Assembly: GCA_002711845.1 (NCBI GenBank) | Contig: PASF01000013.1 | Location: forward strand, 186,001-250,000 | Reading direction: 5' to 3' | From: Gammaproteobacteria bacterium | Lineage (GTDB): Bacteria > Pseudomonadota > Gammaproteobacteria > Pseudomonadales > Pseudohongiellaceae | DNA: 64,000 nucleotides | In this document: positions 18,183 through 52,237 of the stretch, in pieces | Position numbering within the stretch: the stretch's first letter is position 1 | Layout: the number at the start of each line of letters is the position of its first letter | The notes under the pieces: generated by a model | Told to the model about the DNA's origin: nothing | The model's database searches: none | Seen by the model: only the letters and a program-made list of their open reading frames with translations | Made by a program: the position numbers and the translations under genes

Positions 18183-18267
18183 GCGGACGTGGTGGAATTG
18201 GTAGACACGCTGGATTTAGGTTCCAGTGCCGCAAGGTGTGGGAGTTCGAGTCTCCCCGTCCGCACCA
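18183..18267 (+). tRNA. tRNA-Leu (anticodon UAG)
   Basis: An 85-nt class II tRNA. The acceptor stem is GCGGACG / CGTCCGC, with discriminator A and an encoded CCA at 18265-18267. The anticodon stem CTGGA / TCCAG encloses loop TTTAGGT, so the anticodon is TAG (18217-18219), reading CUA and related Leu codons. A long variable arm and the T-loop GTTCGAGTC are present. No duplicated 3' end of this tRNA was seen in the window, so there is no sign of an element integrated here. Confidence 0.97.
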
Positions 18268-35319: not shown

Positions 35320-36093
35320 TTGATTATCATCCGTTTATTGGCGCCCCTGCTGCTGGCATTGCTTGCCTATTGGGGACTGCGCCGCATCAGCCAGCGTTAC
35401 TCGCTGACCGCGCGCCAGTTCAAGTGGCTGGTTGGGCTGGCTGCGGCGCTGCTGGTGATCATGGTGCTGATTGTCATGGGTCGTCTGCCAGTGCAGGCGC
35501 TGGCAGCGCCCTTGTTGTTTTTGCTGACCTTTCTGCTGCGCAATGGCCACTGGCTGATGCGCATCCTGCCCATGCTGCGGCCGAAGTATCAAGGGCAGGG
35601 CCAGGCGCAGGGATCATCCCGCAGCGGTTCGGCGGGGCCTGGGGTGTCGTCTATCAAAACCCGCTGGCTGGCGATGGAGCTGACACACAGCACCGGATCG
35701 ATGGACGGAGAAGTGCTGACTGGCCAGTTTGCCGGTGACCGTCTGTCAGCGCTGTCGCTGGCGGATTTGCTGGAGGTGGCCAGTGAGTGCCGGCAGGACC
35801 CCGATTCCCTGCAACTGCTTGAAGCGTATCTGGATCGCATGTTTCCGGACTGGCGCGAGCATGCTAGCGCCGACGCCGACAGTGCCCGCGGTCCACGGCC
35901 CGCGGGTGATGAGTCAGCAATGACCGAAACGCTGGCTTTGGAAATACTCGGGCTGGGCAGCGATGCCACGCGCGAGGAAATCACCGCCGCCCACCGCCGC
36001 CTGATGCAGAAAATGCACCCGGATCGTGGTGGCTCGGACTATCTGGCGCAGCGCATCAATCAGGCTCGGGACTTTTTGTTGAGAAACGCCTGA
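35320..36093 (+). CDS. Membrane-anchored J-domain protein
   Basis: A 257-residue protein that starts with TTG at 35320 (GAGGG 7 bases upstream; no ATG option fits). Two or three hydrophobic helices occupy the first 80 residues (IIIRLLAPLLLALLAYWGL; WLVGLAAALLVIMVLIVMG; AAPLLFLLTFLL). A cytoplasmic linker follows, and a C-terminal J domain (about 205-257) has ALEILGLGSDATREEITAAH and the Hsp70-stimulating HPD motif in MQKMHPDRGGSD. The arrangement resembles Tim14/Pam18 or TM-J proteins, which recruit DnaK to a membrane partner. Its 3' end overlaps the convergent enoyl-CoA hydratase gene by 34 bases. Confidence 0.82.
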   Translation: MIIIRLLAPLLLALLAYWGLRRISQRYSLTARQFKWLVGLAAALLVIMVLIVMGRLPVQALAAPLLFLLTFLLRNGHWLMRILPMLRPKYQGQGQAQGSSRSGSAGPGVSSIKTRWLAMELTHSTGSMDGEVLTGQFAGDRLSALSLADLLEVASECRQDPDSLQLLEAYLDRMFPDWREHASADADSARGPRPAGDESAMTETLALEILGLGSDATREEITAAHRRLMQKMHPDRGGSDYLAQRINQARDFLLRNA

Positions 36094-36827
36094 AAGACGG
36101 CCTGCGCATCGGGCGTCTGCAGCAGCCGGGCGAATTCGGTCAGCTCTGTGGTGATAATGTCGTCCAATGGCTGGGCCTGGTTACGCTTGATCAAGGCTTT
36201 GGAGGTCTGCACAGCATCGGCGGGCAGGCGCGCGAGTTCATGCGCCTTGGTCATGGCGTGTTCCAGGTAGCCGGCCGCTGGCAGTACTTCATTGACGATG
36301 CCGTATTCCTGGGCCTTCTGTGCTGAAAATCGCTCGCCCAGCAGCAACAGTTCGCTGGCACGCTGGTGACCGACGATCTGTTGCAGCAGCAGACTGGAGC
36401 CGGCTTCGGGGCACAGTCCCAGGCGCGTAAAGGGCAGCTGCAGGAAGGATTCTTCAGAGGCATACACCAGGTCGCAATGCAGCAGCATGGTGGTACCAAT
36501 ACCGATTGCCAATCCGCCCACCGCGGCGATCACCGGTTTGCGCGCATGGCCGATAGCCTTCATGAACTGGACCGACGGGCGTTCGGTGCCCATGTCGGGC
36601 GACTTCACGAAATCGTTCACGTCATTGCCGCTGGTGAAGCACTCTTCAGTGCCACGAATCAATATGGCCTTGATGTCATCGTCCTGGTCGGCGGCTTTAA
36701 TGCCTTGCGCCAGCGCCGCGTACATGGTTTGGGTCAACGCATTTTTCTTGTCTGGCCGGTTTATCTGCAAAACCAGAACGCCGTGTGAGATCTGATAGAT
36801 AACATGCTGATCGGGTGAGGAAATCAT
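36060..36827 (-). CDS. Enoyl-CoA hydratase/isomerase family protein
   Basis: A 255-residue crotonase-superfamily enzyme that probably hydrates or isomerises enoyl-CoA esters. Core segments are INRPDKKNALTQTMYAAL (CoA-binding entry), RGTEECFTSGNDVNDF (first oxyanion-hole strand) and AAVGGLAIGIGTTMLLHCDLV (second oxyanion hole and active-site helix). FTRLGLCPEAGSSLLLQQIV carries the usual catalytic-Glu region (PEAG). A diverged copy of its first 22 codons is found at 47999-48066. It lies upstream of an acyl-CoA ligase group on the same strand, suggesting a role in acid degradation. Confidence 0.9.
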   Translation of the reverse strand: MISSPDQHVIYQISHGVLVLQINRPDKKNALTQTMYAALAQGIKAADQDDDIKAILIRGTEECFTSGNDVNDFVKSPDMGTERPSVQFMKAIGHARKPVIAAVGGLAIGIGTTMLLHCDLVYASEESFLQLPFTRLGLCPEAGSSLLLQQIVGHQRASELLLLGERFSAQKAQEYGIVNEVLPAAGYLEHAMTKAHELARLPADAVQTSKALIKRNQAQPLDDIITTELTEFARLLQTPDAQAVFQAFLNKKSRA

Positions 36828-36932
36828 GGTTTGAGCCCGTGTTGGTCATTGGATTTGACCCGATTGTAGAGCAAGACTGCGCCCTTGGGTAGGGATCCTG
36901 AATGGCCTCAGTTTGCCGGCGAAGGCGCCGTG

Positions 36933-43704: not shown

Positions 43705-44424
43705 ATGACGCAACGATCAATCACCACCGCCGGCAGCTTAGTCGGCGATACGCTGGCCAAGGTCATCATTGCCGATGACCATCCCCTGTTTCGCGCTGCG
43801 CTGGGGCACACGCTGGCGTCCACGCTGAGTGGCGACGTGCTGGAAGCGGACAGTTTTGCTGCCCTGCAGACGCTACTTCTGCAACATCCGCAGATCGAAC
43901 TGGTCTTTCTGGACCTGAACATGCCCGGCAACCAAGGGCTGACGGGACTGACCGCGATCCGCAACCAGTTTCCGGATGTGCTGGTGGTGATCGTTTCCGC
44001 CAATGAGCAGCTGGATGTTGTTGAGCGTGCCATGAGCTTCGGGGCCAGTGCCTATGTGCCCAAATCTGCCCCCATGCCGGACATTGTCAGCGCCGTTGAA
44101 ACCGTCCTGGGTGGTGACAACTGGTTGCCTGCGCATCTACAGAGCAGTCTGCAGCTGCAGAAGAATTCCCTGCATCAACAATTTGCCCGAAAATTGGGTC
44201 AACTGACACCGCAACAGTTCAAAGTACTGCGCTGTATCGCCGATGGCCTGCTTAACAAACAGATCGCCTATGAGCTTGATGTACAGGAGACGACCATCAA
44301 GCAGCATGTCTCAGCGATTTTGCGCAAGCTGGGTGTGATCAACCGAACCCAGGCGGGCGTGTTGTTCCATGACATGTTGAGGGCCGATGAAGAAGGTGTA
44401 CTAGCCGAATCCGATGCCCTTTAA
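43705..44424 (+). CDS. crbR: LuxR-type response regulator (CrbR-like)
   Basis: A 239-residue NarL/LuxR-family response regulator. The receiver domain (about 18-135) has the acidic pair in VIIADDHPLFRAAL, the phosphorylation Asp in LVFLDLNMPG, Ser in VIVSANEQ and Lys in AYVPKSAPM. The C-terminal LuxR helix-turn-helix (about 165-230) has LTPQQFKVLRCIADGLLNKQ and TTIKQHVSAILRKLGVINRT. It is convergent with, and overlaps by 24 bases, the symporter-kinase hybrid gene. CrbS/CrbR systems of Vibrio and Pseudomonas, which switch on acetyl-CoA synthetase, use the same partners, so CrbR is the best guess. Confidence 0.82.
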   Translation: MTQRSITTAGSLVGDTLAKVIIADDHPLFRAALGHTLASTLSGDVLEADSFAALQTLLLQHPQIELVFLDLNMPGNQGLTGLTAIRNQFPDVLVVIVSANEQLDVVERAMSFGASAYVPKSAPMPDIVSAVETVLGGDNWLPAHLQSSLQLQKNSLHQQFARKLGQLTPQQFKVLRCIADGLLNKQIAYELDVQETTIKQHVSAILRKLGVINRTQAGVLFHDMLRADEEGVLAESDAL

Positions 44425-47400
44425 CAGACGTTTCAGGGCAGCCTGTTTGACGGGTTTGGGCAGGAAGTACGCGCCAACCTCGACAACCTGTTCACGAATG
44501 GTCTCGTTGGGATCGGCCGTACTCAGGATGGCCACGATATCCTGTGACCACTGTGCTCTGATCCTGTCAATGGCCTCCGTGCCTACCTGCTGGTCGCCCA
44601 GGTGGTAATCAATCAGCAACAGGTCGGGCCGGCGAGAAACCTGCATGGCGTCTGCGGTGGTGGCGCAGGCAGTCACACTGGCGCCCCAGTCCCGCAGCAG
44701 CGATGACAGCGCATCGCGAATCGCCGGGTCATCATCCAGCAGCAGCACATGAGTCTGTTCCGGCAACGACCATTGCACGTTGTCGTTCAGCAGCCGCTTC
44801 CTGGTCAGTGCAGCGCTGCGCCAGGCACTGACCGGCAGGGTGAGTGCAAAGCAGGTGCCGCGGTGCAGATCTGACTGCACGCGGATGGGAATATCCAGCA
44901 GCCGGCACATACGATCGACGATGGCCAACCCGAGGCCCAGACCGGGGTTGTGATCATGCTGTTCGAGCTGCCGGAATTCCAGAAATATTTCATTGAACTT
45001 TTCCGGTGGAATACCACGCCCCGTATCCCAGACCTGCAATTCGATGCGATCACCAGCCTGGCGCCGGATGCCGCACAATACTTTGCCGTGCTGGGTGTAG
45101 CGCACCGCATTGCTCAGCAGGTTCTGCAGAATGCGCTGCAATATTTTCTGATCGGTGTGCACCACCACCTGCGTGGGTTGGATACGGAATGCAAGGCCCT
45201 TTTCTTCAGCCAGCAGCGCGAAGGAGGCATTCAGGGGTGCCAGGATATCCCACAGGGCAATGTCTTTTTTGTGAGGCTGCAGGTTGCCGGATTCGAGCTT
45301 GGTCATTTCCAGCAGCATGGTCAACAACTCTTCGGCGTTCTGCAGCGATTGTTGTATCTGCATGGCCAGGTTGATGTCATCGCTTTTCATCCGCTTTAAC
45401 AGCATCTCGCAAAACAGACTGGCTGCATTGAGAGGCTGCATCAGGTCATGGCCGGCCGCCGCAAAAAATTTGGACTTGCTGTGATGGGCATGTTCCGCCG
45501 CCTGCTTGGCGACTGACAGCGCTTCGGTGCGTTCCGTCACGCGGGCCTCAAGTTCGGCATTGATCTGCTGCAATTCATTCTGGGCGGTCACCAGATCGGT
45601 AATGTCCGTGTACGTTGTAACAAACCCGCCATCAGGCATCGGGTTACCCTGTAATTCGATGACGTGACCGGAAGGCTGTTGGCGCTGGTAGCGATAGCGG
45701 CTGCCGCTACGCAGATAGGCCAGGCGTTTGCTGACCTCCTCTTCAACATCGGTGGCCGGGTGGCCAAACAGACCGCGGCGGGCATTGAAGCGCAGGATCT
45801 CTTCGACGGCGATGCCGGCCCGGATCAGGCCTTCGGGATACTCGAAAATCTCCAGGTAGCGCCGGTTCCAGGCGACCAGTCGCAGCTCTTTGTCGATGAC
45901 GCTGATGCCTTGCGGAATGTTCTCCACCGAGGACTGCAGCAGCTCACGGTTGAATCGGTACAGTTGAGAGGCTTCGGATGCCCAGTCAACGACCTCATCA
46001 ACGGCAACCGGTGAGGGTCTTGCCAGGCTGCCAATCAACAGCCGGCTGGCCGAACTGCCAATGGCGCCGGCCAGCTCGCGCTCCAGCCGAACCAACAGCA
46101 TTGGGTGCACCAGGCGCTGTTCGGGGACGTCAGCAATGCTCAGGCCAAGGCGCCGGTTAAGCCCCTCGGCATCCTGTGGGTCCATGAAGCGTGAGAGAAC
46201 AGCACGCAATCGGCCCCAGGTGACCCGCTGTGCATGACTGTCCGCGGCGGCCAGAGTGCCCACCTTGTGCTCGGAGCGGGTAAAGCGCAGGCCCTGCTGA
46301 TGATCCGCCCGGGTCTGTCGACGGGTCCAGGACACCAGCAGATAAACAAGCACGTTTGCACCCAGGCTGAGTACCACACCGTCACTGATGGCCCGGTCAG
46401 TGAGCAACTGGTCTGGGTCCAGCGACGGCAGCAGCAGCAAAGCTGTCCAAACCGATGTGCCGACGATCAGCCCGGCTGCCGCACCGGCCCGGTTTGCTTT
46501 GGCCCATAACAAACCGCCAAACATGGGCGGCGCCAATTGTGACAGGAGGGCCATGGCGATCAATCCGTTGCTGACCAGCGGCAGCCCGCCCTCGGTCAGC
46601 TTGTGATAGACATAGGCCAGCACAATGATCACTACCATGGTCAGGCGTCGGGTCAGCAGCACGCCCTGGGGGGTCAGGTCGGAAATCAGATTGCCACTGC
46701 GCCGGGCGCGCAGCCACAGGGGTGTGATGACGTCATTGGACATCATGATGCCCAGGGCCAGCGTTGCCATGATGACCATGCTGGTGGCCGTGGACAGTCC
46801 CCCGATGAAGGCTATCAGGCTGATGTCAGGGCGATCAGCCAGAATTGGCAGGGCCAGCAGGAAGGTGTCGCTGGTGCGTGCCTCCGGTGCCAGGATGACG
46901 CCGCCCAGGGCGATGGGGAGAATGAAAAAGTTGATGGCAAACAGATACAGGGGGAAGGCCCAGCGCGCTTTTTTCAGCTCCCCGGGGCTGGTATTTTCAA
47001 TGAAATTGACCTGAAACTGCCTGGGCAGCACAAACATGGCCAGCGCCCCCAACAGCATGTGGGTCACAAAAATATAGGCACCATTGGCCTTGGGTTCGAG
47101 CAGTGTCCGCGCCTGTTCATTGGCCGCTGCCGACAGAATCAGATCATTGACACCGTCAAACAGCTGATAGGTGACAAACAGGCCCACCAGACAGAAAGCC
47201 ACCAGTTTGACAATCGACTCAAAGGCGACAGCATCCATCAGGCCCGGGTGTTGTTCTGCCAGGCTCAGGCGGCGGGCGCCGAACAGAATGGAAAAACCGG
47301 TCATGGCTAGCGCGACGGCCGCCGCCAGGTCGAGAAACCAGGGCGCGGCGCTGGCCTCAAGTCCGGTCACCGCGGCAAAGCTGGCGGCGACAGCACGCAG

Positions 47401-47793
47401 TTGCAGGGAAATATAGGGGACCAGTGCGATCAGGCAAATGATGGCAACCAGCGCCGCCAGCAGGTGTGATTTGCCATAGCGCGAGCCGATCAGGTCGGCG
47501 ATGGACGTCAGGTTCTGTTCCTTGACCAGCGTCAGCATTTTCAACTGAAAGTGATGGGCAAACAGGAATACGCAGATCCCGCCCAGATAGGTTGGCGCGA
47601 ACCACCAGCCATACTGTGCTGCCTGGGTGACCGTGCCGTAGAACGCCCAGGTCGTGCAGTGCACACCCAGGGCAAGGGTATAGCGCCAGGGCCGGGGTCC
47701 CGACCGGGTGTTGCGTTCACCGCGAGAGGCAATTGTGAACAGGAGGGCCAGATAGGCAAATGCGGCTATCAGGACAACATAAATCGGTAACAT
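44401..47793 (-). CDS. crbS: Sodium:solute symporter-histidine kinase hybrid (CrbS-like)
   Basis: A 1130-residue membrane sensor kinase. The first roughly 500 residues form an SSSF/PutP-like symporter domain with about thirteen helices (for example NLTSIADLIGSRYGKSHLLA). A linker and a PAS domain (about 625-735, with LLQSSVENIPQGISVIDKEL) follow. The HisKA dimerisation domain has the phospho-acceptor His in FFAAAGHDLMQPLNAAS, and the ATPase domain has LLSNAVRYT, WDTGRGIPPEKFNE and GLGLGLAIVDRM. A C-terminal receiver domain (about 1010-1125) has LLLDDDPAIRDAL, LLIDYHLGD and YFLPKPVKQ. The layout is that of CrbS, which controls acetate use. Its 5' end is partly duplicated at 50553-50582. Confidence 0.9.
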   Translation of the reverse strand: MLPIYVVLIAAFAYLALLFTIASRGERNTRSGPRPWRYTLALGVHCTTWAFYGTVTQAAQYGWWFAPTYLGGICVFLFAHHFQLKMLTLVKEQNLTSIADLIGSRYGKSHLLAALVAIICLIALVPYISLQLRAVAASFAAVTGLEASAAPWFLDLAAAVALAMTGFSILFGARRLSLAEQHPGLMDAVAFESIVKLVAFCLVGLFVTYQLFDGVNDLILSAAANEQARTLLEPKANGAYIFVTHMLLGALAMFVLPRQFQVNFIENTSPGELKKARWAFPLYLFAINFFILPIALGGVILAPEARTSDTFLLALPILADRPDISLIAFIGGLSTATSMVIMATLALGIMMSNDVITPLWLRARRSGNLISDLTPQGVLLTRRLTMVVIIVLAYVYHKLTEGGLPLVSNGLIAMALLSQLAPPMFGGLLWAKANRAGAAAGLIVGTSVWTALLLLPSLDPDQLLTDRAISDGVVLSLGANVLVYLLVSWTRRQTRADHQQGLRFTRSEHKVGTLAAADSHAQRVTWGRLRAVLSRFMDPQDAEGLNRRLGLSIADVPEQRLVHPMLLVRLERELAGAIGSSASRLLIGSLARPSPVAVDEVVDWASEASQLYRFNRELLQSSVENIPQGISVIDKELRLVAWNRRYLEIFEYPEGLIRAGIAVEEILRFNARRGLFGHPATDVEEEVSKRLAYLRSGSRYRYQRQQPSGHVIELQGNPMPDGGFVTTYTDITDLVTAQNELQQINAELEARVTERTEALSVAKQAAEHAHHSKSKFFAAAGHDLMQPLNAASLFCEMLLKRMKSDDINLAMQIQQSLQNAEELLTMLLEMTKLESGNLQPHKKDIALWDILAPLNASFALLAEEKGLAFRIQPTQVVVHTDQKILQRILQNLLSNAVRYTQHGKVLCGIRRQAGDRIELQVWDTGRGIPPEKFNEIFLEFRQLEQHDHNPGLGLGLAIVDRMCRLLDIPIRVQSDLHRGTCFALTLPVSAWRSAALTRKRLLNDNVQWSLPEQTHVLLLDDDPAIRDALSSLLRDWGASVTACATTADAMQVSRRPDLLLIDYHLGDQQVGTEAIDRIRAQWSQDIVAILSTADPNETIREQVVEVGAYFLPKPVKQAALKRLLKGIGFG

Positions 47794-47999
47794 GCGATGT
47801 ATCCAGACCTCGGCCAGGGCGTCTTGATGGTAGAAATTATGCTGTTTTTTTTATCGAACTTTTTTATCGAACTTTTTATTGAATCAAGCAGTCCCGCGTT
47901 GTTGAGCGCCTGGGGCATCCGGGAGCCAGCCAATGACAGTCATCAAACAAGACGATCTGATCCAGAGTGTAGCCGATGTGCTGCAGTACATCTCCTATT
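47770..47999. repeat. Left copy of kinase-fumarase intergenic repeat
   Basis: About 230 bp containing the first codons of the kinase gene, the intergenic region and the first 22 codons of fumarase. It matches 50559-50774 in the same orientation at roughly 90-95% by eye. The left copy has about 14 extra bases in the T-rich ATCGAAC region. It ends abruptly where the enoyl-CoA hydratase fragment begins. Confidence 0.9.
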
Positions 48000-48034
48000 T
48001 TATCTGCAAAACCAGAGCGCGGTGTGTGACCTGA
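47933..48034 (+). pseudogene. Truncated fumarase 5' fragment
   Basis: The first 22 codons (MTVIKQDDLIQSVADVLQYI then SY) match the start of the intact fumarase at 50708 with one changed residue. The frame then runs into unrelated sequence (the antisense of a hydratase fragment) and stops at 48034. The result is a non-functional 33-codon stub left by a rearrangement. Confidence 0.88.
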
Positions 48035-48074
48035 TAGATAGCATGCTGATCGGGTGAGGAAATCATGGTTTGAG
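47999..48074 (-). pseudogene. Truncated enoyl-CoA hydratase 5' fragment
   Basis: The minus strand from ATG at 48066 reads MISSPDQHAIYQVTHRALVL then QI and a stop soon after. It matches the start of the intact hydratase gene (36760-36835) at about 70 of 76 bases, including the bases just upstream of the start. It faces the fumarase fragment tail to tail, with a two- to three-base T overlap at the junction near 47999. The 5-6 differences suggest an old event or a paralogous source. Confidence 0.87.
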
Positions 48075-48260
48075 TGGGCGCTGCAAGTGATATGGCCTGT
48101 AGGTAAACTGATGAAAGATATATGCTATAGTATGTAGATTTTACTTGGTACACTCATCGACTAACGTCAGCGCCACATGAAGGAGCGAGGCAGAGCCGTT
48201 TCAGTACCAACGGTTTGCCCAGTGCAATCCCATCTAGCGAAGTCAGGTAGGCCAAAAGTA

Positions 48261-49007
48261 ATGTCTGAAAACTCATCAATGCCGCGTCAGTTGCAAAGGA
48301 AAAAAAAGGTAATAGTCGTAGAGGATGATGAGATGTTTGGCAGGTTATTAAATTATCAGCTTCATGCGAACGGTTATGATGCCTACGTTTGCTCAATTGC
48401 GACCAACTTATTTGACCGTATAAAACTAGATGGAGTGCCTGATCTTTTTGTCCTGGACTACTTTCTGGGAGATGAGACCATTTCCGGACTCGATCTATGT
48501 CGTAAGGTAAAGAGCTATTTTGATCGGCCAGTTATAATGCTGACAGGAAATGACAACGTCGAAACGACAGTGAGCTGTCTTAATGCCGGCGCAGAGCAAT
48601 ATATTATCAAGCCATGCGATATTCGGGAGCTGATAGCGAGGATAGAAGTGACTTTGCGAAGCAGGACTGTATCGAAGGAGTCCAATATTCAATCCTTTTC
48701 TCTTTTTTTGGATGATGATATTTCTTTCTCTTGGGAAGATGAATGTCTGATTCACACTGATGGAAATAAGGTAAAGCTTACGCAGAAGGAAATAGCTTTG
48801 CTTGAGCTGATTCTGAGGGAACCTAATCGATTTGTAGATCGACGCAAGGCTTTTAACGTGTTGTACGGATACAATATGGATCCTTTTAATCGTTCCATTG
48901 ACATATTGATAGGCAGGATCAGGAAGAAAATAAGAATATTGGATGATCGATATATAATTAAAAATTTGAGAGGAAAGGGTTATTTGCTTTGCCGAAGGAA
49001 AGAGTAA
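48261..49007 (+). CDS. OmpR-type response regulator, AT-rich island
   Basis: A 248-residue response regulator. The receiver domain has the acidic pair in VIVVEDDEMFGRLL (Asp 22/23), the phosphorylation Asp 66 in LFVLDYFLGDE, Thr 95 in VIMLTGND and Lys 117 in YIIKPCDI. The C-terminal winged helix (about 145-245) has KLTQKEIALLELILREPNRF, SIDILIGRIRKKI and IIKNLRGKGYLL, the OmpR/PhoB signature. Base composition and codon use are far more AT-rich than in neighbouring genes. No histidine kinase is adjacent. Start choice is uncertain: ATGs at 48177, 48261 and 48279 are all possible; 48261 keeps the receiver intact with a short N-terminus. Confidence 0.88.
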   Translation: MSENSSMPRQLQRKKKVIVVEDDEMFGRLLNYQLHANGYDAYVCSIATNLFDRIKLDGVPDLFVLDYFLGDETISGLDLCRKVKSYFDRPVIMLTGNDNVETTVSCLNAGAEQYIIKPCDIRELIARIEVTLRSRTVSKESNIQSFSLFLDDDISFSWEDECLIHTDGNKVKLTQKEIALLELILREPNRFVDRRKAFNVLYGYNMDPFNRSIDILIGRIRKKIRILDDRYIIKNLRGKGYLLCRRKE

Positions 49008-49134
49008 ATAGAAGTTGGCTGGTTTTATTTATGGCCGTTAAGAGTGGCATATATCGTGGTTCAGTAAGTAGATGCTCGGGCTGATATGTCGCCAGGATAC
49101 TCTGAAGCTTCTCAGCTTCTTTGGGGTTCTTCAT
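48958..49134 (-). CDS. Possible 58-residue protein, unknown
   Basis: A short minus-strand frame starting at ATG 49134 reads MKNPKEAEKLQSILATYQPE, then HLLTEPRYMPLL, and so on to a stop at 48958. It overlaps the 3' end of the response-regulator gene by 50 bases in the opposite direction. Residue make-up looks protein-like, and the frame stays open for several codons upstream, so it may be the end of a decayed longer gene. No family recognised and no clear ribosome-binding site. The rest of 49135-49246 shows nothing. Confidence 0.25.
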   Translation of the reverse strand: MKNPKEAEKLQSILATYQPEHLLTEPRYMPLLTAINKTSQLLFTLSFGKANNPFLSNF

Positions 49135-49246
49135 GGCGCCATCATTATGTGCTCTCGTTGAATGTCCATTTATGATCGGGTGAAAAGAATTCTGTCATTC
49201 TTGGTCATGCCATGTGTGGTTATGATAAAAAAATCACGATACTTCA

Positions 49247-49594
49247 TTATGAATTCATAATTCCGCAGATAACTCTTAGTAATTCGCTTCTGTAAACGGG
49301 CCTAACCAAATCCGTGAGACATAGTGTCTCGTCTGTATGATCGGACGACCTACGTATCAGTATTAGCTTATTGTAGAAATCTGGCTCCCTGAGTAGAACC
49401 CGAGTGGGGTCATCTAATATATCATCATCTACGATGAGGACGTCAGGATGGAGCTTGGCGTGTGTCTCCAGGCAGGCTATATCGCCGCTGTTAACGATTA
49501 CGGTCAAGCCAGTAGACTCTAGCATTGAGGCGATAACATTTCGTTCGGAGGCTTCTTTGATTAGCACAACTGCTTTAAGTGCGGGGAAAAACAT
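49247..49594 (-). CDS. Divergent response-regulator receiver domain
   Basis: A 115-residue stand-alone protein with the beta-alpha order of a receiver domain. KAVVLIKEASERNVIASMLE gives the first strand and helix, TVIVNSGDIACLE the second, HPDVLIVDDDILDD holds the phosphorylation-type Asp (about 56-58), NKLILIRRSSD carries the Ser/Thr position, and LVRPVYRSELLRVI ends the fold. The metal-binding acidic pair after the first strand is replaced by KEAS, and the conserved Lys is Arg. It may therefore not be phosphorylated normally. The ATG at 49594 is preferred; a TTG at 49654 would add 20 residues. It is AT-rich, like the rest of the island. Confidence 0.65.
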   Translation of the reverse strand: MFFPALKAVVLIKEASERNVIASMLESTGLTVIVNSGDIACLETHAKLHPDVLIVDDDILDDPTRVLLREPDFYNKLILIRRSSDHTDETLCLTDLVRPVYRSELLRVICGIMNS

Positions 49595-49977
49595 TCTCTG
49601 TCTACCTACCAGGCTTGTAATTAGAGTGTTGATCTGTCGAGTTAAGTAACGCAAATCGATAGATTGCTGACGCCATGCAATAGCATCAGTAATGGCAGCA
49701 ACTACGGTCTACCATCTTCTTCACCAAGGACGAGCTCCAGGTTTCGTCAGTCCAAATGCAGTCGTTACAGAAGCCAATGAAACCGAACATGTGATTTGTC
49801 GGTAGTGTGCTATAACATCATTGCCTCACTGGTGGGGTCAGATTTACAATAGACGGGAGGTAGCAATGACGGAGCAACCCATGCCTAGAGCGATTTGCTC
49901 ACTCCGGAGGATAATACGAGCCCTAAGTTCGGATTGGTGCTGAAATCAGTCTTTTTGCGGTTGACTAGTAATGGTTA
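49595..49977. other. AT-rich intergenic stretch in the island
   Basis: No intact gene seen. At about 49829-49943 a plus-strand segment with GGGTCAGATTTACAATAG, a GGGAGG ribosome-binding site and an ATG at 49866 opens a 25-codon frame (MTEQPMPRAICSLRRIIRAL, then five residues) that stops at once. The leader recalls sequences before REP-associated (Y1-type) transposase genes, so this may be a transposase-gene remnant. This is a weak impression only. Confidence 0.25.
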
Positions 49978-50277
49978 CTAGCACGCTATCTTAACGCAAT
50001 GGCCCCTGTGTATGATTCTGACTGAGTGCGCGTCAAAAGGTTCAAGAGCCGAAAAGCCCGTAAACTCATAAATGCCAGGCTCCTGTGGCTCTTGTGGATG
50101 CTTGAACTTCAATATCTTTGCAAGCTCAATTGACCCTAGTTTGGCATCATGCATCAAAAACTGGTTTTCCGGATTTACCTGCAGAACGACAAAGGTGCCG
50201 TCCATACCGATCGCCAGCAACGCCTTGGCTTCCACAAACGCGGCACTGTCAGGGATGGAATGTTGTAAGCTGGACAT
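49978..50277 (-). CDS. Small protein of the island, unknown
   Basis: A 99-residue soluble protein with no recognised family. It begins MSSLQHSIPDSAAFVEAKAL and continues with alternating strands (GMDGTFVVLQVN, PGIYEFTGFSALEP, HSVRIIHRGHCVKIAC), suggesting a compact beta-rich fold. Such a fold could be a sensor or regulatory module, but this is not shown. GAGG and AGAGG lie just upstream of the ATG at 50277, so translation is likely. It shares low GC content with the response regulator, and both genes lie between the direct repeats. Confidence 0.55.
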   Translation of the reverse strand: MSSLQHSIPDSAAFVEAKALLAIGMDGTFVVLQVNPENQFLMHDAKLGSIELAKILKFKHPQEPQEPGIYEFTGFSALEPFDAHSVRIIHRGHCVKIAC

Positions 50278-50552
50278 ACCTCTTTTCCTCAAGAAACATA
50301 CGCTATAAAAATATGTATATTAACGTTGGTCTCCAATCTATATTGTATAAATATGTAATCATTCGGCTTCGTTGGTAGCAAACGCTCTCTGGAAGGCGAT
50401 GCGGAATCTTGAAAAAGCTGTCTAGAGATGTAATGCCGACACCAATATCGCCACTGAAGTAGTCAGTCTCTTCGAATTCACGGCAATACAGGCTACGAGC
50501 TAGCACCCAATCAAGGCTGACATTTCCTTTTTGTGTGTGGCCTGATGGCGAT
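50278..50552. other. AT-rich stretch, no convincing gene
   Basis: Holds the probable promoter region of the 99-residue gene (AT-rich around 50300-50350). A 67-codon minus-strand frame (50303-50506) would need a GTG start, lacks a ribosome-binding site and matches nothing recognisable. It is more likely decayed sequence. Confidence 0.4.
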
Positions 50553-50582
50553 TAATACCAGGACAACAGAAATCTGTAACAT
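50553..50582 (-). pseudogene. Decayed 5' stub of the symporter-kinase gene
   Basis: From ATG at 50582 the minus strand reads MLQISVVLVLIA, against MLPIYVVLIAAFA for the intact kinase at 47793. Similarity fades after about 10 codons. It is the kinase end of the right-hand repeat. Confidence 0.75.
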
Positions 50583-50774
50583 GCGATGTATCCAGGCCTC
50601 GGCCAGGGCGTCTTTATGGTAGAATTCATGCTGTTTTTTTATCGAACTTTTTATCGAATCAAGCAGTCCCGCGTTGTTGAGCGCATGGGGCATCCGGGAA
50701 CCAGCCAATGACAGTCATCAAACAAGACGATCTGATCCAGAGTGTAGCCGATGCGCTGCAGTACATCTCCTATT
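50559..50774. repeat. Right copy of kinase-fumarase intergenic repeat
   Basis: About 216 bp that match 47770-47999 as a direct repeat. This copy joins a decayed kinase stub to the intact fumarase gene. The two copies bracket about 2.56 kb of mostly AT-rich sequence, and the repeat unit offset is 2775 bp at the fumarase end. Confidence 0.9.
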
Positions 50775-52237
50775 ATCACCCGCTGGACTTCATAAAAGCC
50801 GTCAATGAGGCTTATGAACGAGAGGAGTCTCAGGCCGCCAGGGACGCCATGGCGCAGATCCTGATCAACTCGCGGCTGTGTGCCGAGGGGAAACGACCCA
50901 TTTGTCAGGATACCGGGATCGTGACGGTGTTTGTCAAAATCGGCATGGATGTGCAGTGGGGCGACGCCACCATGAGTGTTGCCGACATGATCAATGAGGG
51001 CGTTCGACAGGCCTATCTGCATCCCGATAATGTGCTGCGAGCCTCCATTCTGGCCGACCCGGCCGGCGCCCGAACAAATACCCGGGACAACACGCCGGCG
51101 GTAATCCACATGGAAGTGGTACCCGGTAGCGTCCTGGATGTGACGGTTGCGGCGAAAGGCGGCGGTTCCGAGAACAAGTCCAAGATGGCCATGCTTAATC
51201 CCAGTGACAGCATTGTTGACTGGGTGCTGAAGACGGTGCCGACCATGGGCGCTGGCTGGTGCCCGCCGGGTATGCTCGGCATCGGCATCGGCGGCACGGC
51301 GGAAAAGGCTGCGGTCATGGCCAAAGAGTCACTGATGGATCCCATTGATATCCATGAGCTGCGCGCGCGCGGCCCGCAGAATCGTGTGGAGGAGCTGCGT
51401 CTGGAGATCATGGACAAAGTCAACGCGCTGGGCATCGGCGCGCAGGGCCTGGGCGGGCTGACCACGGTACTGGATATCAAGATCAAGGATTATCCGACTC
51501 ATGCCGCGTCACTGCCGGTGGCCATGATCCCCAACTGCGCGGCGACCCGCCATGCGCATTTTGTGCTCAATGGCGATGGCCCCGCCCACTTGACGCCGCC
51601 CAAGCTGGAAGACTGGCCGCAGATCACCTGGGATGCCGGTCCCACGGCGCGCCGGGTGAATCTGGATACGGTGACCCAGGCTGATGTGGAAAGCTGGAAA
51701 CCGGGCGAAACCCTGCTGCTGTCGGGCAAAATGCTGACCGGGCGCGATGCTGCGCACAAGCGCATGGTGGAAATGTTCAACCGAGGCGAATCCCTGCCCG
51801 ACGGTGTCGACCTCAAGGGTAAATTTATTTATTACGTGGGCCCGGTGGACGCGGTGCGCGACGAAGTGATCGGACCGGCGGGACCCACAACGGCCACCCG
51901 TATGGACAAGTTTACCGAAACCATTCTCGACAAGACCGGACTGCTGGGCATGATCGGCAAGGCGGAACGCGGGCAGGTCGCCATTGATGCCATACAGAAG
52001 CACAAGGCGGTGTATCTGATGGCCGTGGGCGGCGCAGCATATCTGGTGTCCAAGGCAATCCGTAATTCCCGTATCGTGGCCTTTGCGGACCTGGGTATGG
52101 AGGCGATCCATGAGTTTGTGGTTGAGGACATGCCCGTCACCGTGGCGGTCGACGTCAACGGCACGTCCGTCCATCGCACCGGACCGGCGCAATGGCAGGC
52201 ACGTATCGCCGAGGCGCAGCCGGTCACTGTGACCTGA
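50708..52237 (+). CDS. fumA: Fumarate hydratase class I
   Basis: A 509-residue iron-sulfur fumarase that interconverts fumarate and malate in the TCA cycle. The N-terminal alpha domain has RPICQDTGIVTVFVKIG (a [4Fe-4S] ligand Cys in CQDTG), NTRDNTPAVIHME, KGGGSENKSKMAML and GAGWCPPGMLGIGIGGTAEK (second Cys). ASLPVAMIPNCAATRH carries the third Cys. The C-terminal beta domain starts near residue 320 (GETLLLSGKMLTGRDAAHKR) and has KFIYYVGPVDAV and GPTTATRMD. The single-chain length is typical. The first 22 codons and the upstream region exist a second time at 47.8-48.0 kb. Class I enzymes are oxygen-sensitive; a class II copy elsewhere is possible. Confidence 0.95.
   Translation: MTVIKQDDLIQSVADALQYISYYHPLDFIKAVNEAYEREESQAARDAMAQILINSRLCAEGKRPICQDTGIVTVFVKIGMDVQWGDATMSVADMINEGVRQAYLHPDNVLRASILADPAGARTNTRDNTPAVIHMEVVPGSVLDVTVAAKGGGSENKSKMAMLNPSDSIVDWVLKTVPTMGAGWCPPGMLGIGIGGTAEKAAVMAKESLMDPIDIHELRARGPQNRVEELRLEIMDKVNALGIGAQGLGGLTTVLDIKIKDYPTHAASLPVAMIPNCAATRHAHFVLNGDGPAHLTPPKLEDWPQITWDAGPTARRVNLDTVTQADVESWKPGETLLLSGKMLTGRDAAHKRMVEMFNRGESLPDGVDLKGKFIYYVGPVDAVRDEVIGPAGPTTATRMDKFTETILDKTGLLGMIGKAERGQVAIDAIQKHKAVYLMAVGGAAYLVSKAIRNSRIVAFADLGMEAIHEFVVEDMPVTVAVDVNGTSVHRTGPAQWQARIAEAQPVTVT

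Follow-up and report, generated by a model that had tools for sequence, protein, structure and literature searches.

The window analysed here is a stretch of 64,000 nucleotides, corresponding to positions 186001-250000 of contig C13 in a host genome (G000) of 3.59 Mb and 15 contigs. Within it, a CrbS-like kinase and a fumarase flank a divergent intergenic region that occurs twice, and between the two occurrences lies an island of AT-rich DNA. The relevant features are listed below in window coordinates; copy 1 and copy 2 refer to the tandem duplication proposed further on, and G-numbers denote the genomes of relatives.

36060..36827, minus strand: enoyl-CoA hydratase/crotonase gene, complete; NCBIfam crotonase-type matches, the best below its curated cut-off; 36760-36835 would be the left end of the duplicated unit.
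44401..47793, minus strand: SSF-PAS-histidine kinase-receiver protein (CrbS-like), complete, in copy 1; Pfam SSF (just below cut-off), PAS_7, HisKA, HATPase_c and Response_reg.
47767..47999, no strand: left repeat; kinase start, divergent intergenic region and the first 22 fumarase codons (stub from 47933); right end of copy 1.
47999..48074, plus strand: hydratase-start piece; left end of copy 2, with the joint at 47999 and a 1-base overlap.
48075..50555, no strand: putative foreign segment in place of ~10.9 kb of copy 2; 44% GC; cluster homology to G008, G014 and G067.
48177..49007, plus strand: OmpR/PhoB-type response regulator, intact; Pfam Response_reg and Trans_reg_C; likely start ATG 48261.
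49247..49654, minus strand: receiver-like small ORF; kin to a 122-aa protein of the G008 cluster (34% over 119 aa); no Pfam match.
49978..50292, minus strand: 104-aa protein of a family without a database match; 56/51/49% identical to its counterparts in G008/G014/G067; in relatives just upstream of a hybrid kinase.
50556..50774, no strand: right repeat; 9 kinase codons (stub), divergent intergenic region and fumarase start; right end of copy 2.
50708..52237, plus strand: fumarase, complete; Pfam Fumerase and Fumerase_C; 97% protein identity in G011/G013.

The CrbS-like kinase protein is 88-89% identical in G013/G011. Its neighbour at 43705-44424 is, by the look of its sequence, presumably a response regulator of the LuxR type, and it directly adjoins the SLC5-type kinase, as expected of a CrbS/CrbR pair. 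The CrbS/R acetate-switch system, described in PMC5715377, resembles the host locus in that PAS-HK-REC is fused to a transporter of the SLC5 type and a LuxR-like regulator is encoded alongside; here, the kinase is a resident host gene that lies outside the island.

The kinase-fumarase intergenic stretch of ~230 bp is present as direct repeats at 47767-47999 and 50556-50774, the edges being shifted by 3 bp from those given in the original prediction (47770-47999 and 50559-50774). Two ungapped blocks make up the match, one pairing 47860-47999 with 50635-50774 (140 nt, 97%) and the other 47767-47851 with 50556-50640 (85 nt, 92%). Overall, the left and right repeats differ by 11 substitutions over 219 aligned positions and by a 14-bp indel, which sits in a poly-T/ATCGAAC stretch, and their longest identical run is 53 nt; aligned in this way, the copies prove both real and diverged. 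As had been proposed, the left copy retains the whole kinase with a fumarase stub of 22 codons, and the right copy the whole fumarase with a kinase stub of 9 codons. The AT-rich interval between them, put earlier at ~2.56 kb, measures ~2.5 kb, with a GC content of 0.436 across 48075-50530 vs 0.574 for the window. The repeat-bracketed feature is real.

The original prediction missed two things: the contents of the island, which form a reduced two-component cluster, and a piece of hydratase gene at its left edge. When the host genome was searched with the whole feature, the 76 bp at 47999-48074 were found to be 93% identical to 36760-36835 in the same orientation (E 2.6e-25), with 5 of 76 sites differing. 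This source sequence comprises the first 68 nt of the enoyl-CoA hydratase gene together with 8 nt upstream, and lies 11.2 kb upstream of the left repeat. By sequence inspection, the hydratase piece begins exactly where the left repeat stops, at 47999, with one base common to both sides. Fumarase codon 22 is thus joined directly to a point 11.24 kb leftward, and this joint, at which the unit's right end leads, in direct orientation, into its left end (47999 to 36760, plus), is the signature of a tandem duplication. By our own estimate, the chance of a random fragment from a 3.59-Mb genome landing no more than 11 kb upstream in that orientation is ~0.2%. One duplication event accounts for the repeats and the hydratase piece together.

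The relationship between the copies is consistent with such an event having taken place in this lineage. Twelve alignment columns group the left and right repeats against G011 and G013, and none conflicts with that grouping. The distance between the copies (11/219) compares with 26/220 and 21/206 to G011, and with 34/207 and 31/207 to G013; the hydratase piece, for its part, is 93% identical to the host's own native gene vs 85% to that of G011. Judged by the twelve columns, the left and right repeats are sister sequences of this lineage, and the hydratase piece, nearest to its own gene, places both copies there as well. Because the copies are closer to each other than to G011, the duplication would be younger than the G011 split, provided that gene conversion has not homogenised them. 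Polarised with the outgroups G011 and G013, 7 changes are assigned to the left copy and 4 to the right, a further 20 variable columns being uninformative or mixed. Of the changes in coding parts, the kinase stub has 2, the fumarase stub 1 and the hydratase piece 4; 2 more coding differences fall on the functional copies by the G011 and G013 comparison, and G006 shares the functional-copy state in both, which makes their polarity ambiguous. This excess of changes in the stubs (7 vs 0-2, at few sites) fits decay in place and is only suggestive.

The same differences bear on whether the feature could have been made by the assembly itself. The assembly is indeed redundant elsewhere, with 16,001 bp of C14 being 100% identical to C6, but an artefact or chimera at this locus would have to accommodate repeats that differ at 11 sites and by a 14-bp indel, a hydratase piece that differs from its source, and island genes whose cluster is also found in other members of the genus. 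We find this explanation scarcely credible; the feature is very probably biological.

Comparison with other genomes, covering the kinase-fumarase region in 11 of 14 same-genus relatives (all but G003, G004 and G012), shows the island to be missing at this locus in 11 of 11. Among the relatives seen, the island at this place is therefore specific to this genome. The uninterrupted version of the locus that the original prediction had called for exists: the match blocks of kinase and fumarase lie on a single contig and overlap in both G011 and G013, and G013 has the whole hydratase-to-fumarase block with neither island nor duplication. A DNA query with the island regulator returned no match at E 1e-4 in the 11 same-genus loci. 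With gap edges set from search matches (that of G008 being extrapolated), the gap between kinase and fumarase is 66-161 bp at 8 of the 11 loci and ~590-850 bp in G007, G008 and G009, in which the gap DNA is 44-49% GC.

These three genomes carry 0.6-0.85 kb of lower-GC DNA in the same intergenic region (G008, L017 3015-3860; G007, L020 3017-3603; G009, L022 3017-3783). It is partly common among the three and has no significant similarity to the island. The kinase-fumarase intergenic region may tolerate insertions.

The island proper is built around a regulator with a receiver and a winged-helix Trans_reg_C domain, both scoring above the Pfam cut-offs, which places it in the OmpR/PhoB family. 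It is 57/54/51% identical to proteins of G008/G001/G014, and the Asp, Thr and Lys columns of the receiver are invariant. Relatives of at least 45% identity are found in 8 of the 14 same-genus genomes (in G004 as two fragments only), and the best-scoring regulator matches in the other 6 are 31-33% identical. The relatives nearest at the locus, G011, G013 and G006, are among those with no close relative of the regulator, their best match being 32-33%. The receiver-like ORF matches the 122-aa protein of G008 with E 4e-11 in a two-sequence comparison and ~1e-7 in a search against the compared loci. For the 104-aa protein, no Pfam, NCBIfam or PHROG match was found; its family occurs in 4 of 137 family genomes, the host's own included. 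A query with 48060-50560 found nothing significant elsewhere in the host genome (next best E 0.345).

Relatives of these genes are found in a larger signalling cluster, for which G008 has the gene order regulator, 185-aa protein, 122-aa receiver-like protein, 948-aa PAS-GAF-PAS hybrid kinase, 104-aa protein, Hpt and REC-EAL. In the island, homologues of the G008 regulator, receiver-like protein and 104-aa protein stand in the same order and orientation. The G014 cluster has an island-like layout without the receiver-like ORF, and that of G067 matches the island genes in a different arrangement. The clusters of G008, G014 and G067 all have a hybrid kinase, Hpt and a REC-EAL phosphodiesterase, whereas the island has none of the three. 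Remnants of these and of the 185-aa protein were sought in the island, and none was significant (best E 0.41). Elsewhere in the host genome, the best-scoring matches to the cluster's hybrid kinase are 32% identical (40% over one 282-residue piece), and the best-scoring match to REC-EAL is also 32% identical. In each of these relatives, the cluster has a GC content below that of its flanks: 0.443 vs 0.526 in G008, 0.467 vs 0.516 in G014 and 0.494 vs 0.547 in G067. Low GC together with a patchy distribution makes acquisition by transfer likely, and on these grounds the cluster in the island was likely acquired horizontally. Searches for a donor or a near-identical copy of the island found none.

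Arrival of the insert from relatives together with homologous flanks was considered and rejected. Direct repeats of at least 30 nt were not found around the cluster in either G008 (14-kb stretch) or G014 (16-kb stretch).

AT-rich foreign DNA between direct repeats is also what one would see upon insertion of a mobile element (a genomic island, an integron cassette or a composite transposon) with duplication of its target. Here, however, the repeats consist of host promoter and coding DNA rather than element ends, and such an insertion would leave the hydratase piece unexplained. No recombinase was detected in the scanned ORFs, and the window's only tRNA gene found is at 18183-18267. To our knowledge, a target duplication of 230 bp is far beyond the lengths made by transposons. 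The earlier statement that no integrase or transposase is intact holds for the island ORFs scanned (5 with Pfam, 4 with NCBIfam and 4 with PHROGs), and the combination of an integrase or transposase gene with an att site, by which an integrative element would be known, was not found. We therefore regard an insertion of this kind as very unlikely. Carriage as transposon, integron or phage cargo was likewise rejected, with no recombinase by Pfam, NCBIfam or PHROGs and an empty search of plasmid DNA. Matches in PHROGs were confined to the regulator and comprise families of unknown function and one transcriptional regulator; the 104-aa protein had no match to phages by tblastn.

Taken with the joint, these results lead us to propose, as the probable course of events, a tandem duplication of ~11.24 kb in this lineage, after which the interior of copy 2 was replaced by a fragment of the signalling cluster. 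An ancestor would have duplicated in tandem the segment running from hydratase codon 23 (36760) to fumarase codon 22 (47999). Illegitimate joining with ~1 bp of overlap is the presumed mechanism behind a joint, an orientation and a lineage that can be read directly. Copy 1 would then have been kept complete, and the redundant copy 2 would have lost ~10.9 kb of its interior, with ~2.48 kb of two-component cluster coming to stand in its place by an order and route that we can only suppose. The survivors of copy 2 would be 76 bp of its left end and, at its right end, the kinase start, the intergenic region and fumarase. The cluster itself would have been reduced, its OmpR-type regulator remaining intact and its hybrid kinase having presumably been lost either before or after arrival. 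With the interior complete in copy 1, replacement is easiest to picture in a copy that was redundant, which suggests that duplication preceded replacement.

That the second copy was once full-length is deduced from its two ends, as there is no homology past the known edges and no trace of the other 10.9 kb. Extending the edges gave scores not above those of shuffled sequences (equalled or exceeded by 969 and 433 of 2000 shuffles), and a search of the island for remnants of the genes expected inside copy 2, among them the kinase, TonB receptor and ligase, found none. A weak kinase match there (E 6.9e-05) was set aside, as it reflects receiver-domain similarity to the regulator rather than a kinase remnant. 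With only the joint and the two ends of copy 2 present, and no second copy of the interior of the unit, the locus is classed as the remnant of a tandem duplication and not as an intact one.

The original prediction had offered two origins for the island, and of these, duplication followed by insertion is the one that the hydratase joint supports. The other is a Campbell-type integration, in which a circle bearing the hydratase start, the signalling cluster, the kinase start, the intergenic region and the fumarase start enters by one crossover in the kinase-fumarase intergenic region. Such an integration leaves an insert flanked by direct repeats, and the final structure would be identical, since re-integration of a circle that had been excised with this joint would produce just that. 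The circle must, however, already carry both the hydratase/fumarase joint and the replaced interior, so this course presupposes the same rearrangement plus an excision and is not the simpler one. The island has no plasmid DNA match, the 3 plasmid records that match the regulator protein (E limit 1e-20) are only 34-36% identical, and no integrase, relaxase or replication gene is seen in the scanned island ORFs. We accordingly judge integration of a circle to be unlikely.

Tandem chromosomal duplications that arise by illegitimate recombination and are later remodelled by deletion are a known kind of event. The present case is of that kind: a remodelled tandem duplication, well preserved, carrying a horizontally acquired fragment. 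It is like the others in its direct joint with almost no homology, its direct end repeats and its decaying redundant copy, and differs in that the interior of copy 2 has been replaced by foreign signalling genes, not merely deleted. In bacteria, tandem duplications of some age have usually vanished without trace, as they collapse by recombination. Here, both ends, the joint and the foreign replacement are all readable, so that the steps of the event could be ordered by comparison of sister strains. Limited searches of the open-access literature, which were not aimed at publication status, returned no titles on this locus.

Under the preferred reading of duplication followed by replacement, one consequence of the joint concerns expression. 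The island regulator lies downstream of the left repeat and could hence be driven by the copy of the fumarase promoter region that this repeat contains. Hydratase piece and spacer put 262 bp between the joint and the regulator's ATG at 48261. A scan for the sigma-70 consensus found no promoter-like site in either repeat, the region as a whole having 4 sites vs 6.4 expected by chance. A terminator-like hairpin is predicted at 47975-47992, just before the joint, as one of 2 terminator-like sites vs 2.9 expected by chance. PMC11111574, which cites Anderson and Roth 1978, describes how tandem duplication can bring foreign genes under a captured promoter. The two cases are alike in that, at a duplication joint, a foreign gene comes to lie downstream of a resident promoter region; in ours, capture is a possibility suggested by the anatomy, and the 262-bp spacing and the predicted hairpin intervene.

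A stronger version would have the duplication kept for this very arrangement, the joint having put a newly acquired, kinase-less regulator under the fumarase promoter region while the right repeat aims the kinase promoter at the two minus-strand small genes. This strikes us as quite doubtful. If true, a foreign orphan regulator would have been rewired to central carbon metabolism by inward-facing host promoters on both sides. Independently of this version, the locus is a natural test case for whether a duplication joint can wire a foreign regulator to a host promoter.

Several smaller observations may be recorded. Close to each edge of the foreign segment, at 48022-48035 and 50533-50546, stands the motif GTGTGTG(A/G)CCTGAT; its score is reached by 28 of 2000 shuffles, in one of three comparisons, and the pair may be either chance or a trace of the joining of the segment. 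The family of ~104-107 aa proteins (49978-50292 here; L025 11847-12161; L027 10943-11266; L090 8154-8393) adjoins PAS-GAF hybrid kinases and REC-EAL proteins in a cluster of sporadic occurrence. In G014, G010 and G003, relatives of the regulator have in their neighbourhood a 185-aa protein (L028 8619-9176, L029 4725-5282 and L030 5966-6523), which, judging by its sequence, may be an H-NOX heme sensor, and also a 535-aa protein, for which kinase similarity is seen in L028 and L030. Lastly, in the host assembly, C6:335526-351526 and C14:12000-28000 (L094 and L095) are 100% identical over 16,001 bp in opposite orientation, and paired protein matches are collinear over ~100 kb of C6 with a 36-bp shift, which points to either a redundant assembly copy or a very recent large duplication.
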